Positions 26,888 to 34,168 of a stretch of 45,000 nucleotides of DNA are shown one piece after another; position 1 is the stretch's first letter, and each line of letters starts with the position of its first letter. The stretch is from Candidatus Neomarinimicrobiota bacterium (GTDB lineage Bacteria > Fidelibacterota > Marinisomatia > Marinisomatales > S15-B10), in assembly GCA_036476315.1 (NCBI GenBank), contig JAZGBI010000015.1, positions 1-45,000 on the forward strand, given 5' to 3'. The notes beneath the pieces are model-generated. The model saw only the letters and a list, made by a program, of their open reading frames with translations. It was not told the origin of the DNA and ran no database searches. Made by a program: the position numbers and the translations under genes.

Positions 26888-28669
26888 GTGCATTCAAAAC
26901 GCCATAACAATCATGCCCGCGCATACCCTACATCTGCCATGGCGACGGAAGATGATAGACAAGGAGAAATGAAAGTGAAATCTGTTTCGAAGGAGAAGTC
27001 CCATGAAATTGAACTTGAAGTCCGGGGTATGACGTGTGACTCCTGCGCCGTGCATGTGAAGAATGCTCTGGAATCTGTCCCTGACGTATTATCTGCCTCT
27101 GTGCCCCACTGGACGGCGGGAGAAGCAGCGGTGAAAACCAGAGACGGTGTTATTGAAGATCGACTGGTTTCAGCTGTCAAGGCCGCCGGTTACAGTGCTA
27201 CTCTCCGCTCTCCCACCAGGGAATTTGAGAGTCTTGAGCCTGACAACCGTAGTTCGGACTACGATCTAATCGTTATTGGAACCGGCTGTGGCGGTATGGC
27301 AGCCGCGCTCAAAGCTTCAGAACTTGGGAAGTCCGTTCTTGTCGTGGAGGCGGGAACCATCGGAGGGACTTGCGTAAATATCGGGTGTGTTCCCTCAAAA
27401 ACACTGATCCGGGCTGCCGAGGTTTACCACAAGGCCAAGAACCACCCATTTAAGGGAATAGACATCCAGACCAATGGGGTGAATTGGCACGAGGTGGTGA
27501 AACAAAAGGACGGACTTGTGGACGAACTCAGGGAACAAAAATACGCGAATGTTCTTGCCTCCCAAGCGGAAAACATTACGTTCATGGAGGGGAGCGCCGA
27601 GATAAAGGGAGGCGGAGTCGTCGTAGATGGCGAACATTACTATTCTGCGAAGAAGATAGTGATTGCCGTTGGCGCTCGACCCAACGTTCTTCCCCTTGAA
27701 GGAATCGATAACGTTAATGTCCTCACGAGTACCACAATCATGAGCCTGGAGAAGCAACCGGGCTCTTTAGTGATAATTGGTGGTCGTGCTATTGCTCTGG
27801 AGCTTGGTCAGGCACTTGCAAGGTTGGGTACGAAAGTAACGATACTTCAGCGTAGTGACAGACTTATTCCCGACCATGAGCCAGAAATTTCTGAAGCCAT
27901 TCAAGAGTATCTTCAGAATGAAGGACTGGACATCTACACGGGCGTTAGTGCAAAACGAATTAAGGAAGAGAAGGGTAGAAAAATCGTTACTGTAGCAAAG
28001 GATGACGGGTTCCTCCAGGATTTTCAGGCCGAAGAGGTATTAATGGCCGTTGGCAGAGAACCGAACAGTCAAGATTTGGGTCTGGAGGAAGCAGGTGTGG
28101 AGACGGATGAAGGCGGATTTATCCTGGTGGACGACACCCTTCAAACCACAAATCCCCATATCTACGCTGTTGGTGACGTCACAACCTTACCCAAGTTGGT
28201 CTACGTGGCGGCGGCCGCAGGCGGAATTGCTGCTTCCCACGCCTTTGGAGATGCACCGCAGCCTCTGGACCTGTCTGTGTTGCCACAAGTGATTTTTACA
28301 GATCCTCAAATAGCCATCGTAGGATTAACTGAAACCCGGGCCACCGAAAAGGGCTATCAGGTCAAAACCACTCTACTTCCGCTGGATCATGTCCCCAGGG
28401 CGTTGGCGGCACGCGACACCAGGGGCTTCATCAAGTTGGTGGCCGATGAGGCTACGGACCGTCTACTGGGGGCCCATATTCTGGCGGCAGAAGGAGGTGA
28501 ATTAGTCCAGACCGCGGCCCTGGCCGTGAAGTTCGGGGTAACCAACGGCTTCACGCTATCTGATCTTCGACAAATGTTCTTTCCCTACCTGACCCAGGTT
28601 GAAGGGCTTAAACTGGCCGCTCAGACCTTTGAAAAAGATGTTACGCAGCTGTCATGCTGTGCTGGCTGA
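26888..28669 (+). CDS. merA: mercuric reductase MerA with N-terminal heavy-metal-binding domain
   Basis: MerA reduces Hg(II) to Hg(0) with NADPH in the cytoplasm. An HMA domain with 'GMTCDSCA' (C50/C53 in the longest frame) precedes a pyridine-nucleotide disulfide oxidoreductase with redox pair 'GGTCVNIGCVPSK'. The two C-terminal mercury-binding cysteines ('SCCAG') are present. The start is uncertain: GTG 26888, ATG 26939 or ATG 26969 (AAGGAG just before it) are all in frame, and the conserved part begins after the last one. The gene is first in a mer operon that uses an ArsR-type rather than a MerR-type regulator. Confidence 0.93.
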   Translation: MHSKRHNNHARAYPTSAMATEDDRQGEMKVKSVSKEKSHEIELEVRGMTCDSCAVHVKNALESVPDVLSASVPHWTAGEAAVKTRDGVIEDRLVSAVKAAGYSATLRSPTREFESLEPDNRSSDYDLIVIGTGCGGMAAALKASELGKSVLVVEAGTIGGTCVNIGCVPSKTLIRAAEVYHKAKNHPFKGIDIQTNGVNWHEVVKQKDGLVDELREQKYANVLASQAENITFMEGSAEIKGGGVVVDGEHYYSAKKIVIAVGARPNVLPLEGIDNVNVLTSTTIMSLEKQPGSLVIIGGRAIALELGQALARLGTKVTILQRSDRLIPDHEPEISEAIQEYLQNEGLDIYTGVSAKRIKEEKGRKIVTVAKDDGFLQDFQAEEVLMAVGREPNSQDLGLEEAGVETDEGGFILVDDTLQTTNPHIYAVGDVTTLPKLVYVAAAAGGIAASHAFGDAPQPLDLSVLPQVIFTDPQIAIVGLTETRATEKGYQVKTTLLPLDHVPRALAARDTRGFIKLVADEATDRLLGAHILAAEGGELVQTAALAVKFGVTNGFTLSDLRQMFFPYLTQVEGLKLAAQTFEKDVTQLSCCAG

Positions 28670-28784: not shown

Positions 28785-29381
28785 ATGAAAGGTACACTGC
28801 TTTCTTCAGTCCTTGCCGGCTTAGCCGCATCGTTCTGCTGCATCGGTCCGGCTCTGATCCTGCTGTTCGGTTCCACGACTCTGGGAGCGTTTTCATTTCT
28901 TGAACCTATCCGGCCCTACACGTCAACTGCCGCTATAGGGCTGCTCGGTTTTGCTTACATCAGGACTTACCGTAAAAAGTCTGATGAAACGTGTTGTGAC
29001 ATTGAAGAAAAGGAGAAGCTCATGAAGAATCAAAAGTTACAAAGGCGGGCGTTGTTGGGGATCACTCCGGTCGTTCTGGCGCTCATCCTGTTCCCCTATT
29101 CCACCGGACTGTTATACGCTGGTGACAAGCCAGAAAATGAAAAAAGTGGCGTGACGTCGGAGTGGACAGTCGAAGGGATGACCTGTCAATGGTGTGCCAG
29201 GGGGCTTGAAGGAGGCATTTCCTCAGTAGAGGGTGTAAGCCGGTGCGAGGTGGATTATGATTCTCAATCCATGATTTGCACCCTGGATGAAGATGTTCTG
29301 AAGGCCAAGGCAGTCCCTGCTCTGGTTAAAGAAATGGGATACGCAGCGGTGCCCAAGAAACAGAAGGAGACGACAGAGTGA
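28785..29381 (+). CDS. merTP: mercury transport protein, MerT-MerP fusion
   Basis: This 198-residue membrane protein imports Hg(II) to MerA. The first half is MerT-like, with the Cys pair in the first helix ('ASFCCIGPALILLFG') and a second pair in the cytoplasmic loop ('ETCCDIEE'). A third hydrophobic segment ('ALLGITPVVLALILFPY') leads to a C-terminal MerP-like HMA domain with 'GMTCQWCARGLE'. The start ATG 28785 follows TGAGGAG. It overlaps the ArsR-type gene by four bases. Confidence 0.88.
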   Translation: MKGTLLSSVLAGLAASFCCIGPALILLFGSTTLGAFSFLEPIRPYTSTAAIGLLGFAYIRTYRKKSDETCCDIEEKEKLMKNQKLQRRALLGITPVVLALILFPYSTGLLYAGDKPENEKSGVTSEWTVEGMTCQWCARGLEGGISSVEGVSRCEVDYDSQSMICTLDEDVLKAKAVPALVKEMGYAAVPKKQKETTE

Positions 29382-29770
29382 AGGATAGTTTTGAGCGTTC
29401 ATGTGTCCGGTCTTATGTAGACAAAGACAAGCTTATTTCGTTGAGAGCCGATCTTGCCCAGAATATCGATCTGGAACGGCACGCCGAGATACTCGCCATG
29501 ATGGCCGATCCGACCCGTCTCAAGATTCTCTACTCCCTCGCCACCGGGGGCGAATTGTGCGTCTGCGACCTGGCGGATACTCTTGACAAAGAGGTTTCCG
29601 CTATATCTCATCAATTGCGGAGATTGAGGGACAGGGGACTCGTGAAAAATCGCCGGGATGGCCTCACCATCTACTACCGTTTGGCAGAGAGCGAAGAGTG
29701 CCGGAAGGCGTGTGAACTCATTAACCGGATTTTCGAAACGGAAGAATCAGAGCTGGTATATGAAAGTTGA
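29378..29770 (+). CDS. ArsR/SmtB family metal-responsive repressor
   Basis: The 130-residue winged-helix protein has the alpha-3 metal site 'ELCVCDLA' with a C-x-C pair, and an N-terminal Cys ('FERSCVRSY') as in CadC-type sensors. The DNA-reading helix is 'VSAISHQLRRLRDRGLV'. It is co-encoded with merTP (overlap 29378-29381), so it probably controls the mer genes through the TTCAA-N4-TTGA palindromes. Most mer operons use MerR, though ArsR-type regulators of mercury genes are known in actinobacteria. Confidence 0.88.
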   Translation: MKDSFERSCVRSYVDKDKLISLRADLAQNIDLERHAEILAMMADPTRLKILYSLATGGELCVCDLADTLDKEVSAISHQLRRLRDRGLVKNRRDGLTIYYRLAESEECRKACELINRIFETEESELVYES

Positions 29771-30010
29771 GTTCTTCAGCGCGGGCTGTCGGTTGTCTGA
29801 AAGGACACTCGAAGTTCTCCGGGATCGTTTTCCAGAATCGGACATGAAAATCCATCTAGCGAGTGAATGCGTGGATGGAAGTTGTTGCAGGCTGGCTGAG
29901 AAATATGGAATCAGGGCAGTTCCCTCCCTTGTTGTCAATGAAAACTTGTTCTAACAGGGGTACCCCCAAAGAGCAGTTTTGAAACCTTGGCACAGATTCT
30001 TGCCTCCTAA
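29760..30010 (+). pseudogene. small thioredoxin-fold protein of the mer operon, frameshifted near its end
   Basis: From ATG 29760, overlapping the repressor gene by 11 bases, the frame reads a thioredoxin-like fold: 'KVEFFSAGCRLSERTLEVL', 'SECVDGSCCRLAEKYG' and 'IRAVPSLVVNENL'. It stops at TAA 29952, before the last strand and helix. In the -1 frame the sequence continues as 'VLTGVPPKSSFETLAQILAS' to TAA 30008, exactly the expected ending. One base is therefore missing around 29944-29950, or there is frameshifting. The first Cys motif is C-x-x-S rather than C-x-x-C. The type 'pseudogene' is provisional. Confidence 0.6.
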
Positions 30011-30090
30011 TGGCGAGTTAGTTCCCAGTCAATAACTCGTTTGAACCACAGAACAAGATGACATCTCTTCCTGTCATCGTGAAACAATTG

Positions 30091-31077
30091 ATGAAGGTCA
30101 ATCCAGGCCTTCTGCTCATCAGTCTATCGCTCATCACCTTTCAGTCACCCCTGCGCGGGCAGTGACCCCTCTGAAGTAACCCAACGCTTCCGGTCGGGAG
30201 TGGGACAGAGGGTATCGGGCTGGCGAGAAGTCAATGGATCGGTGGATCGGACTACGGTTTTTCACAGTGGGCTCCCAGCCGTTTCTCCCGCATGGAACCG
30301 GCCCACTCAGAGGATGAAGGGGAGAGCCACCTTGGGACCGTCACGATTCATAGGTTGGCCCCCTTTGTCATGTACGGCGCTTCCAACCGTTTGAACCTGC
30401 TGGTTGGAATCCCGTTTACCCACTGGAGTCAAACTGCAGACGAACCGGATGCTCATCACAGGACTGAAACCGTTGCCGGCTTCAGTGACATTACGGTAGG
30501 AGCTCACTGGTTAACTGTGAACCAGTCCTTCGGTCCCGGGCACCGTTTTTTCCTGGGGACAGATCTTACTCTTCCCACCGCCAGGAGTTATAAGGCGAGT
30601 CCGTTCTCCGAGGATGCCGATTCGGTGACGCACCGTCACTTCGCCCTGGGAGACGGAGTCGTATCATCATCTGTTGATTTCCAGTGGTGGTATCGATCTG
30701 AGTTTCCCTGGGTGGTGGGCATTACCGGTGAGTACCTGTTTCCCTGGTTTGAGAGTGATGCGGGATTCCTCCCGGGGAGAAAGCTCTTTTTCAACCTCCA
30801 CGCCATTGGACAGGCCCCGCTTTTTCCCAGGGTTTATCCGTATATCAAACTGAGGATGCAGGGAGAGCAAGAGGACCGATGGAAAGGAAAAGATGCCCCG
30901 AATTCCGGGGGGTTCATGGTGGCTGCCATGGTGGGTCTGGAACTGGAGATCACCGAATCAGTCGCAGCCGTGGTTTCCATAGAGTTGCCAGTGTGGCGGC
31001 GGTTCGAGGGATCCCAGCTCGATCCCTTTACCTTGTCTCTTAGCCTCAGGCGCCTGTGGCACCTGCATGGATCGTGA
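30091..31077 (+). CDS. predicted selenoprotein: exported beta-barrel-like protein with U-x-x-U after the signal peptide
   Basis: From ATG 30091 (or ATG 30058) the frame gives a signal peptide ('GLLLISLSLITFQSPLRGQ'), then UGA-Pro-Leu-UGA (30163-30165, 30172-30174). It then runs open to 31077 through an aromatic-rich, beta-strand-like protein ('GSDYGFSQWAPSRFSR', 'RLAPFVMYGASNRLNLLVG'). The next gene has a signal ending 'SQ' followed by CAMC at the same point, so both UGAs occupy cysteine positions. A SECIS-like hairpin with GGUC loop follows at 30185-30202. Read with Sec at both UGAs, the protein has 328 residues. It is annotated here as one gene; a frame starting at ATG 30292 would lack any export signal. 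No clear ribosome-binding site is seen. Confidence 0.72.
30185..30202 (+). promoter_or_regulatory. candidate bacterial SECIS element
   Basis: CGCTTCC (30185-30191) pairs with GGGAGTG (30196-30202) around a GGTC loop, giving seven pairs with two G-U wobbles. The loop starts 26 bases after the first UGA and 17 bases after the second, in the distance range of bacterial SECIS elements. GGUC is the apical loop recognised by SelB in E. coli fdhF. Confidence 0.65.
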
Positions 31078-31080
31078 ACC

Positions 31081-32031
31081 ATGTGGCGTTCGTTTTTTCT
31101 GGTTTTGATTTTCTCTCGATCTCTTTTCTCACAGTGTGCCATGTGCAACAGTCCGCCTCCCCCGGCGGGCGGGAGCGAAGTAGGAGGTTCATCCGTACAG
31201 ACAGTGGGCATAGTCTCAATTGAGGAAGGTGATTTTCAGCAGTTGGGCCTGGGCCGGGGAGAGAAAAGATTCGGCATATCCTTCGATCGAATTCTTCTTA
31301 AAATTAACGAGATCGGAAATACTCCTGTAGATCTTTTCCGGGTCACCGATCTTGTCAGTTTATCAGGAGGAATCGGTCTGGCGCGGGGACTCAGTCTGTG
31401 GGGACAGATTCCCCTGGGAAAGAATAGAGATGAAAGTCGATGGACGATGGGGAATCCAGCGTTCGGTCTGCGGTGGAGACCCGGCGTCCTGGAGACGGAA
31501 AGAGGAGTCATTGTATATGTGAACGAAGGACTGGTCGTTCCTCTGGGCGAGTCACTCTTTGGCAGTTATGAGGATCCATCATTAGGGCAGATAGACGCTG
31601 GGAGGACTCCGGCCGCACAGAGCGCTTACCTGAACAGAGCTGTGACCGAAGTCTGGATTGATTCCAAAAAGTCACGTCTGTTCGGACTTCAATTTCTGTG
31701 GGATTTTCCCCTCAATAGAGCTTCCGGTGGGATCCATCCGGGAGAAGTTCTCCAATTGAGCCTCCATACCATAGACCGGAGATTTGCTGGCCCCGGATTT
31801 GTTCCCTACCTGGCGCTGATCTACCGGAACCAAGGTCCCGATAAAAAAGGGGGTAGGGAGATCGAGAATTCAGAGGGTTGGTTCATTCACGGAATCGCTG
31901 CCCTGACGGTGCGGTTGAGTCCCGACTACCGGGTGACCGTGTCAACAAGTGGCCCTCTGATGATCGGGATTGTTGGGGCTGATCTGAGTCAAACGAATTT
32001 CGGTATATCGCTGTTCTGGCAGCCAGACTAG
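31081..32031 (+). CDS. exported beta-barrel-like protein with CAMC motif after the signal peptide
   Basis: The 316-residue protein has a signal peptide ('SFFLVLIFSRSLFSQ') followed at once by C-A-M-C, then a proline-rich linker ('NSPPPPAGGSEVGG'). A run of amphipathic strands follows, with many Gly and aromatic residues and a Trp-Gln-Pro-Asp C-terminus, consistent with an outer-membrane barrel. It begins 3 bases after the predicted selenoprotein and has a thiol pair where that protein has Sec-x-x-Sec. No family is recognised with confidence. Confidence 0.75.
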   Translation: MWRSFFLVLIFSRSLFSQCAMCNSPPPPAGGSEVGGSSVQTVGIVSIEEGDFQQLGLGRGEKRFGISFDRILLKINEIGNTPVDLFRVTDLVSLSGGIGLARGLSLWGQIPLGKNRDESRWTMGNPAFGLRWRPGVLETERGVIVYVNEGLVVPLGESLFGSYEDPSLGQIDAGRTPAAQSAYLNRAVTEVWIDSKKSRLFGLQFLWDFPLNRASGGIHPGEVLQLSLHTIDRRFAGPGFVPYLALIYRNQGPDKKGGREIENSEGWFIHGIAALTVRLSPDYRVTVSTSGPLMIGIVGADLSQTNFGISLFWQPD

Positions 32032-32114: not shown

Positions 32115-33209
32115 ATGATGAAATCAGATAATGAACACGGCACCGGGAGATGGAGAATGTTGAAACGAACGGTGCTGGGTGCTTCAGTCACTATTTTGAT
32201 GTTGGCGTCATGGAGCTGCTCAAAGGATTATATTCTTGACCTTGGGGCAGAGAGTTTTCCGGGAGCGGGAACCTGGCTCATCAACGAATCCTACGTACAA
32301 TGGGGTTGTCCAGGCAAAGACTGTATCCCAAATCTCACAAATCCCAGGATGGTGAAGTCAGGATCGAGTGAATTGGCTTTCCTTGACGACAATGAACTGG
32401 TTGTGGGTGTCAAGAAAGGGGATGACTATTACGCATTCCCTCACAGCGTGCTCGACTGGCATGAAGTGGTCAATATGGAAGAATATACAATCTCCTACTG
32501 TCCATTGACGGGCAGTGCGATTCATATCATAGATGACAGAGGTTTCGGTGTGTCCGGGCTTCTTTACAATAGCAACCTCATCATGTACGACAAGGAGTCC
32601 ACGAGTTATTGGCCACAGATGTTTCTCAGGTCGGCCGCTGGGAAATTCCGGGGAGAAAAACTGGAACTTGGCGCCATGATTGAAACCAAATGGGCAACCT
32701 GGAAGAAACTGTTCCCTGAGACCTACGTTGTTTCTTCTCAGACGGGATACCCAAGAAACTATAATGCCTATCCGTATGGAAGCTACAGGACCGACGGTTC
32801 AGTCTATTTTCCCATAGAAAGTTTTGATGAAGATCTTCACCCCAAGGAACGGGTGATAGGTGTTCTTATGGATAACACGGCAAAAGCCTATTCTCTGTCG
32901 AGTTTCGACACGTTATCGGTACTGCATGATACTGTTGAGGACCAGAATATCGTCATATTCGCCTCATCAGCCGACGACTTCGCGGTTTTGTTCAAGACAG
33001 AAAAACAGTTCAGTGTAAAAACCTACAACCTGGAGGAGGGCGAGGCCGTATTCACGGATGAGGCAACTGGAAGTGAATGGAACATTCTGGGAGAGGCGAT
33101 TTCGGGACCTCTTCAAGGTGAAATCTTGGACTACGGCGACTCGTTTATCTGCTACTGGTTTTCCTGGACGGCATTCTATCCTAAGGCTCAGCTCTGGGTG
33201 GGTGAATAG
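32115..33209 (+). CDS. DUF3179 domain lipoprotein
   Basis: The 364-residue exported protein has a signal with lipobox-like 'ASWSC'. It carries the family motifs 'VVNMEEYTISYCPLTGSAI', 'FGVSGLLYNSNLIMYDKEST' and 'SYWPQM'. The conserved 'SYCPLTGS' Cys and acidic residues suggest metal or thiol chemistry, but no activity is known for DUF3179. A second pair of cysteines ('WGCPGKDCIPN') lies near the N-terminus. It is the first gene of the unit 32115-36640; the next gene starts two bases after its stop. Confidence 0.85.
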   Translation: MMKSDNEHGTGRWRMLKRTVLGASVTILMLASWSCSKDYILDLGAESFPGAGTWLINESYVQWGCPGKDCIPNLTNPRMVKSGSSELAFLDDNELVVGVKKGDDYYAFPHSVLDWHEVVNMEEYTISYCPLTGSAIHIIDDRGFGVSGLLYNSNLIMYDKESTSYWPQMFLRSAAGKFRGEKLELGAMIETKWATWKKLFPETYVVSSQTGYPRNYNAYPYGSYRTDGSVYFPIESFDEDLHPKERVIGVLMDNTAKAYSLSSFDTLSVLHDTVEDQNIVIFASSADDFAVLFKTEKQFSVKTYNLEEGEAVFTDEATGSEWNILGEAISGPLQGEILDYGDSFICYWFSWTAFYPKAQLWVGE

Positions 33210-33211
33210 GA

Positions 33212-34168
33212 ATGTTTCTAGCGATTCATCACATCTCCCGTCTCGTCGCGCCGGGCATTCTTGTTTGGGGTCTGGCGGGTACTTTCCTTTGGGGTCAGGC
33301 CTGTTGCACGTTACAAGGATTTAACGGCAGTGCCGCCTACGGATCCCTTTGGGATTTCGATGGTCTCGATTTTGCGAATCCCCGGAATCACACCCAGATA
33401 CAGTTTCAGCTCTCCGGTTCCGATGACTGGGATCGCGACAGTTTTATCACAAACGGGCCGCTTCTCAGCTATTCTCTTATCGTTAACCATTTCGCCAGAA
33501 GAAGCCTCCTTGTGGGTGCTGCGGTCTCGGGGAATTTTTCGACCATTTCTGAAATGCTCACAATTCAACAGAATGAGTCGAGTTTGGCACTCCATACACT
33601 GCAGTTAAGAAGCAGCTGGTTCAGCGGAAACCGGCGCCACGCGTTCTGGTCCCGTCTTATCCTGCCGTTTGTGTCCCATTATTCGAACCGGGATTTCCCT
33701 TTCATTCTATCACCAGCCCGGTCAGTTGAGATTGGGTATGGTTATGTCAAGAATTACGTGAACAGTGGTGGAAAGGGGCGAGTCATCTCCCTGAGGGCAA
33801 ACGTGCGCAAAGACGGAAGAACAGACAACCTATATCAATTCACTTACTACTCTACAGGAGAGGTGGCATTGAGGTACAGGATATACTCTGACATCGTTCC
33901 GTTTGTTTCTTTGTTTGCAAAGCACGGCGCACTGAAGCCTCTGGATGTGACTGTTTACCAGACAAGATTCCCGGCGACACTGTTTACCTATGGGCTTGTT
34001 GGAGCCGGATTGGAGTACAAGGGCACTTTTCTTCAAGGGCTAATCCTCAGGCTGTACGGCTACTATCCAACTCTGAGGTGGTCGAACAATGTTCTTCCTG
34101 CAGGGTTCGAAGAAAAACCTGTTCTCGGACTAACCCTGACAACCACGTTCAGTATGGAGAGGCCATGA
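33212..34168 (+). CDS. exported beta-barrel-like protein with ACC motif after the signal peptide
   Basis: The 318-residue protein has a signal peptide ending 'AGTFLWGQ', followed by A-C-C-T and then long beta-strand patterns ('HTQIQFQLSGSDDW', 'EVALRYRIYSDIVPFVSLF', 'GLVGAGLEYKGTFLQGLILRLYGYY'). It is the third protein in 4 kb with Cys or Sec directly after a Q-ending signal peptide. Its TGA overlaps the ATG of the thioredoxin gene (ATGA), showing that UGA works as a stop here. Family unknown. Confidence 0.75.
   Translation: MFLAIHHISRLVAPGILVWGLAGTFLWGQACCTLQGFNGSAAYGSLWDFDGLDFANPRNHTQIQFQLSGSDDWDRDSFITNGPLLSYSLIVNHFARRSLLVGAAVSGNFSTISEMLTIQQNESSLALHTLQLRSSWFSGNRRHAFWSRLILPFVSHYSNRDFPFILSPARSVEIGYGYVKNYVNSGGKGRVISLRANVRKDGRTDNLYQFTYYSTGEVALRYRIYSDIVPFVSLFAKHGALKPLDVTVYQTRFPATLFTYGLVGAGLEYKGTFLQGLILRLYGYYPTLRWSNNVLPAGFEEKPVLGLTLTTTFSMERP

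Follow-up and report, generated by a model that had tools for sequence, protein, structure and literature searches.

Can a bacterial outer-membrane protein begin with two closely spaced selenocysteine (Sec) residues, and what would it use them for? The question is raised by a gene at positions 30091–31077 on the forward strand of the window, the whole 45,000-nucleotide stretch of Neomarinimicrobiota DNA analysed here. A first-pass annotation of this stretch proposed that two in-frame UGA codons encode a U-x-x-U motif at the mature N-terminus of an outer-membrane-like protein. Our analysis supports a double-Sec protein with near certainty. Its function is inferred with much less certainty: we favour a channel in the outer membrane whose gate for soft metals is a bis-selenol.

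Two UGA codons in one reading frame

The reading frame starts with the ATG at 30091 and encodes a signal peptide, MKVNPGLLLISLSLITFQSPLRG (30091–30159, with an inferred cleavage site), followed by a Gln codon (30160–30162), the sequence UGA-CCC-CUC-UGA, 300 codons of barrel sequence and a terminal UGA at 31075–31077. Apart from the UGAs at 30163–30165 and 30172–30174, both conserved in homologues, no other stop precedes the terminal one. The Gln directly after the signal peptide is invariant in the family alignment, which is why we place the mature start at Q-U-x-x-U; this is likely, given that cleavage is inferred. The start codon is uncertain because a second in-frame ATG lies upstream at 30058. 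This genome otherwise uses UGA to end translation: TGA closes 7 of the 12 window genes checked. The frame, both UGAs, the neighbouring gene and the hairpin described below were all found exactly where the first-pass annotation had put them.

Conservation of the Sec pair

We searched all 245 examined Neomarinimicrobiota genomes with a profile and found a homologue in 82. Three of these could not be judged and were left out; both UGAs are present in 77 of the remaining 79 genomes, where both sites are readable (76 with both TGAs in the phylum search, two of them in split pieces, plus genome G147, read directly as U-x-x-U). The two exceptions each carry a single Cys: UALC (U-x-x-C) in G120 and CSLU (C-x-x-U) in G006. 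On a gene tree of 72 members and three paralogues, these represent two separate Sec-to-Cys changes. No C-x-x-C orthologue occurs among the 79 readable Neomarinimicrobiota genomes; Cys homologues outside the phylum are less well tested. A protein search of 150 related genomes recovered the homologue in 63, nearly all of them flagged as having two TGAs. The tree groups cut across genome family codes—f1, f3 and f10 fall together, and G006 (f1) lies inside the UAxU clade—a pattern that points to gene transfer between members of the phylum.

To avoid bias, a scan of 84,980 genomes used a query from which everything up to and including the second UGA was left out. All 19 confirmed loci carry U-x-x-U, and 17 of them bear the names Neomarinimicrobiota, Marinimicrobia or FCB group. 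The other two, L129 and L130, lie on contigs labelled Rhodobiaceae and Bacteroidetes that are probably misbinned Neomarinimicrobiota contigs. No relative of the window protein was found in the viral contigs scanned, and tblastn against 72,556 plasmids returned no match.

The double-UGA pattern is far beyond chance. That both codons encode Sec is nearly certain, albeit as an inference from sequence without a protein or selenium measurement. The proposal of Sec at both positions therefore held: homologues show Sec-Sec, or Sec/Cys mixtures, at the two sites.

A covarying SECIS hairpin

A 7-bp hairpin with a GGUC loop (30192–30195) lies downstream of the UGAs at 30185–30202 on the forward strand, within the codons for LPVG, and is supported by conservation, covariation and folding. 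Its sequence, CGCUUCC-GGUC-GGGAGUG, folds at -9.6 kcal/mol (z = -2.9), and its loop is separated from the second UGA by 17 nt and from the first by 26 nt. The published bacterial SECIS (bSECIS) model allows a loop of 3–9 nt with a G in its first two positions, a stem of 4–16 bp, 16–37 nt from UGA to loop and a minimum free energy of at most -7.5 (PMC13188914). The window hairpin meets this model for both UGAs; the bare 20 nt of one relative fold at only -6.8. No separate hairpin serves the first UGA. Across 64 sequences the loop is GGUC in 46, AGUU in 13 and AGGU in 5, always at the same distance, and the combination of its first and last bases is G-C or A-U in every case, matching the N1 and N2 of the bSECIS model. 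The proline codon of LPVG ends in G or A in 64 of 64 cases, and in the gene bodies this holds for 334 of 688.

A referee may object that the stem merely reflects the encoded peptide. Taken one sequence at a time, stems are indeed only modestly longer than under a codon-preserving null (p mostly 0.011–0.24), because the LPVG protein sequence itself favours the stem, and the case for a SECIS therefore rests on covariation. In 59 distinct sequences covariation reaches 0.469, versus 0.177 in shuffles (0 of 500 as high) and no more than 0.122 for slid structures. Three members of an LPGG subclade contain a stem mismatch.

The machinery for Sec insertion is present in the genome. selA (524 bits) adjoins the start of selB at the end of contig C30, and the remainder of selB opens contig C94, so that selB, directly after selA, is split over two contig ends (L134, L135). 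The tRNA-Sec gene (selC), with anticodon UCA, is on contig C38, and selD is on C73; selD itself has an in-frame TGA and a similar hairpin, which holds CAGGUCCUG. The reading of the GGUC hairpin as a SECIS thus stands, as it both fits the published model and covaries, and all four genes whose presence the first-pass annotation had offered as a check—selA, selB, selC and selD—were found.

A cysteine paralogue next door

The adjacent forward-strand gene (31081–32031) encodes a paralogous barrel in Cys form, with CAMC at 31135–31146; it reads ...LFSQCAMCNSPPPPAGG at the place that matches U-x-x-U (LFSQ-CAMC-NSPPPP). The C-x-x-C noticed here at first reading is confirmed, and the gene is a genuine paralogue, though a distant one (profile E = 1.9e-14). 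In its orthologues the second site alternates between Cys and Sec: the motif is CALU in G011 and G024 and CSTU in G019. The two CALU paralogues have a GGUC-loop hairpin in the same register, and the window paralogue, a Cys form, has the loop GGCG and a fold no better than shuffles (z = -0.36).

Predicted barrel fold and inferred placement of the Sec pair

An AlphaFold2 model built on a 25-sequence alignment has 12 long strands, with a pLDDT of 86 and a pTM of 0.83. The best Foldseek matches in the PDB are FapF (5o67, E 2.7e-12) and the COG4313 channel 4rl8 (TM 0.68 by query and 0.77 by target), and a sequence search of the PDB gave no meaningful match. PF13557 stays below its cut-off in the window protein (19.8 bits against 22) and matches weakly in 3 of 25 members. 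The earlier description of the protein as an outer-membrane-like barrel is upheld by AlphaFold2 and Foldseek, and a 12-stranded outer-membrane barrel is very likely, though it remains a model prediction.

The position of the Sec pair is less secure. In 4rl8, a stretch of about 14 residues at the N-terminus enters the lumen from the periplasmic side and plugs it (PMC4493636); by analogy with COG4313 and FapF, we infer that U-x-x-U sits in the lumen or at the periplasmic mouth of the barrel. This placement is only an inference because residues 1–12 are modelled at low confidence (pLDDT <50). The first-pass suggestion of a selenol pair on the outside of the cell is not supported, as the COG4313 analogy points to the lumen or periplasmic side instead. 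Near-invariant histidines (H58, H100, H101, H159 and H161 in family-alignment numbering), which count in favour of a metal role, would fall in extracellular loops, as inferred from strand order. Separately, three members (L069, L070 and L076) have His-rich C-terminal tails, HEHEHED, HDHAH and HDHEH, a possible metal-binding feature.

Gene neighbourhood

The main functional clue, missed at first reading, is a metal-resistance operon. Upstream of the double-Sec gene, and like it on the forward strand, lie genes for MerA with an N-terminal HMA domain (26888–28669; TIGR02053 543 bits, over the cut-off), a MerT-MerP fusion-like mercuric transport protein (28785–29381; profile matches), an ArsR-type regulator (29378–29770; assigned from sequence reading and neighbour cluster C2 alone) and a Thioredoxin_3-like protein (29760–30011). 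The last gene appears to be frameshifted near 29940–29944, in an A run; its continuation, LVLTGVPPKSSFETLAQILAS, is in another frame, and a relative at locus L119 is intact. Downstream of the paralogue, again on the forward strand, are a DUF3179 protein with CPGKDC, in Cys form (32115–33209; PF11376 E 4.8e-74), whose family is listed as a selenoprotein family (PMC13188914), and a secreted protein with the mature start QACC (33212–34168), which occurs in the same order in G011 and G024 and whose barrel nature is inferred only.

Similar partners recur in several clades of the gene tree. Neighbour clusters from 64 loci include MerT-P-like proteins in 10, ArsR-like in 10 and CopZ-like in 7, and an HMA lipoprotein lies directly downstream in 7 of the 64. 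Loci of genome family f18 also have MerB (PF03243, E 3e-30), one f16 locus adjoins an SO_0444 Cu/Zn exporter, and the distant family f25 repeats the set of ArsR, MerT or HMA, CopZ and barrel, as assigned by reading the sequences. In the 150 related genomes, 8 of 18 MerT loci lie within ~6 kb of the double-Sec gene; the naive P of ~2e-14 is too small because ancestry is shared. The double-Sec gene is found in 12 of 15 genomes with MerT versus 50 of 135 without (Fisher P 0.002). In the large UAxU clade, most members lack an adjoining metal gene and many are near gyrA/gyrB-like genes, a context that counts against a purely mercury role.

Proposed function and alternative explanations

We propose that these proteins form a new selenoprotein family of outer-membrane channels, in which a pair of selenols acts as a gate for soft metals. 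We put the probability of this reading at roughly 0.66; its metal role is inferred, with no metal measurement. One SECIS hairpin inside the LPVG codons would direct Sec at both UGAs, and removal of the signal peptide would leave a chain starting Q-Sec-x-x-Sec-x-N-P-S/T-L-P-V-G. By fold similarity to COG4313 and FapF, this Sec-bearing segment may plug the barrel from the periplasmic side. Together, the two selenols would bind a soft metal, the most likely ligand being Hg(II) or organomercury where the gene lies in a mer operon and Cu(I) or a similar ion at other loci; operon context and chemistry tip the balance in favour of such a role for the Sec pair without settling it. Metal caught at the outer membrane would be exchanged with the CxxC motifs of MerT and of HMA/MerP proteins in the periplasm, and then passed to MerB/MerA or an exporter. 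The direction of transport is unresolved, and an inward relay, as opposed to export or trapping, is a possibility to which we give slightly less than even odds. In a bolder version, mercury and organomercury handling in Neomarinimicrobiota would begin at the outer membrane with an obligate di-selenol gate. A bis-selenolate site in the channel plug would have been preferred to cysteine because it binds mercury more strongly, and would have been passed down together with a mer-like operon from an early point in the history of the phylum. This version remains tentative, and on balance we lean against it.

The most serious rival treats the Sec pair as a redox device, in which a diselenide, or a mixed bond with periplasmic thioredoxin-like partners, opens or locks the plug or reduces a substrate, and the metal genes are incidental neighbours. 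The U-x-x-U spacing is that of thiol/selenol redox motifs (UxxC and UxxU families, PMC13188914), and thioredoxin-like genes occur on both sides in the window. However, the protein lacks a thioredoxin fold, and its recurring partners are metal-binding HMA, MerT and CopZ proteins, not thiol oxidoreductases; we consider this explanation unlikely. Still less plausible is a COG4313-like channel that takes up small hydrophobic or organometallic compounds, on which the Sec residues would act. It draws support from the nearest folds, FapF and COG4313, the latter channels being thought to carry hydrophobic molecules, from the weak PF13557 matches in 3 of 25 members and from the presence of MerB, which splits organomercurials, in two operons. 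Against it, no aromatic-catabolism genes were noticed among the conserved neighbours, and the PF13557 match of the window protein is below cut-off.

It could also be argued that the UGAs encode an amino acid other than Sec, genuinely stop translation and are followed by re-initiation, or stem from faulty assembly, given that UGA is an ordinary stop in most genes. These explanations are all but excluded: the signal peptide and the barrel share one frame, on either side of both UGAs, in 77 independently assembled genomes, Sec and Cys exchange, the SECIS covaries and the tRNA-Sec has a UCA anticodon. Recoding to Trp, a pseudogene and an assembly error were each rejected as candidates for the double-UGA gene.

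Novelty and comparison with known systems

The double-Sec outer-membrane channel is a family absent from the selenoprotein lists checked, and its Sec pair is almost never replaced by Cys. A profile search of NCBIfam release 20 found no model that matches it, including any selenoprotein family, and none of the 119 prokaryotic families in a 2026 inventory does so; the inventory has single-Sec outer-membrane proteins and UxxU families of other folds. The first-pass remark that no described family with this design was known, made without a search, held for these two sources. The open-access literature searched contained no paper linking selenoproteins to Neomarinimicrobiota in such a way. Because routine annotation ends the gene at the first UGA, the family is easily missed in databases.

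Cysteine versions are numerous in most selenoprotein families, whereas no Cys-Cys orthologue was found here; since the pair is kept together, one can now test for selection that acts on a selenol pair as such. The Sec site belongs to a channel of the outer membrane rather than to an enzyme of thioredoxin type, and the frequent location of this channel in mercury/copper operons connects the use of selenium with the detoxification of metals in bacteria that are abundant in the ocean.

Structurally, the closest systems are the COG4313/PF13557 channels (Pput2725, 4RL8) and FapF (5O65–5O68), which are likewise 12-stranded barrels of ~300 residues. Identity in the structural alignments is only 12–15%, however, with Pfam below cut-off, and these channels serve hydrophobics or amyloid export, with no Sec pair described for them. 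The nearest functional analogue is PcoB/CopB, an outer-membrane barrel in a metal (copper) operon. Copper has been shown to pass through the PcoB barrel (PMC9210255), and its N-terminal His/Met-rich metal-binding region is required for resistance (PMC12509749). The tests run found no homology between PcoB/CopB and the double-Sec channel; PF05275 (PcoB/CopB) is absent from the Pfam matches of the family, and the PcoB N-terminus is long, disordered and rich in His and Met, without Sec. Sec in an outer-membrane barrel is also predicted for the TonB-dependent receptor of FCYXU type (NF049945) and the GSU2204/MtrB-PioB family (NF041027), but these have a single Sec and the double-Sec family matches no NCBIfam model. 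Finally, the UxxU metal-binding HMA selenoprotein (NF041115) and the MerT/CopZ selenoprotein (NF045683) likewise place Sec in mercury- or copper-type metal proteins. Their folds are HMA or MerT rather than barrel, and at double-Sec loci the arrangement is reversed: such neighbours carry Cys, and the barrel carries Sec.
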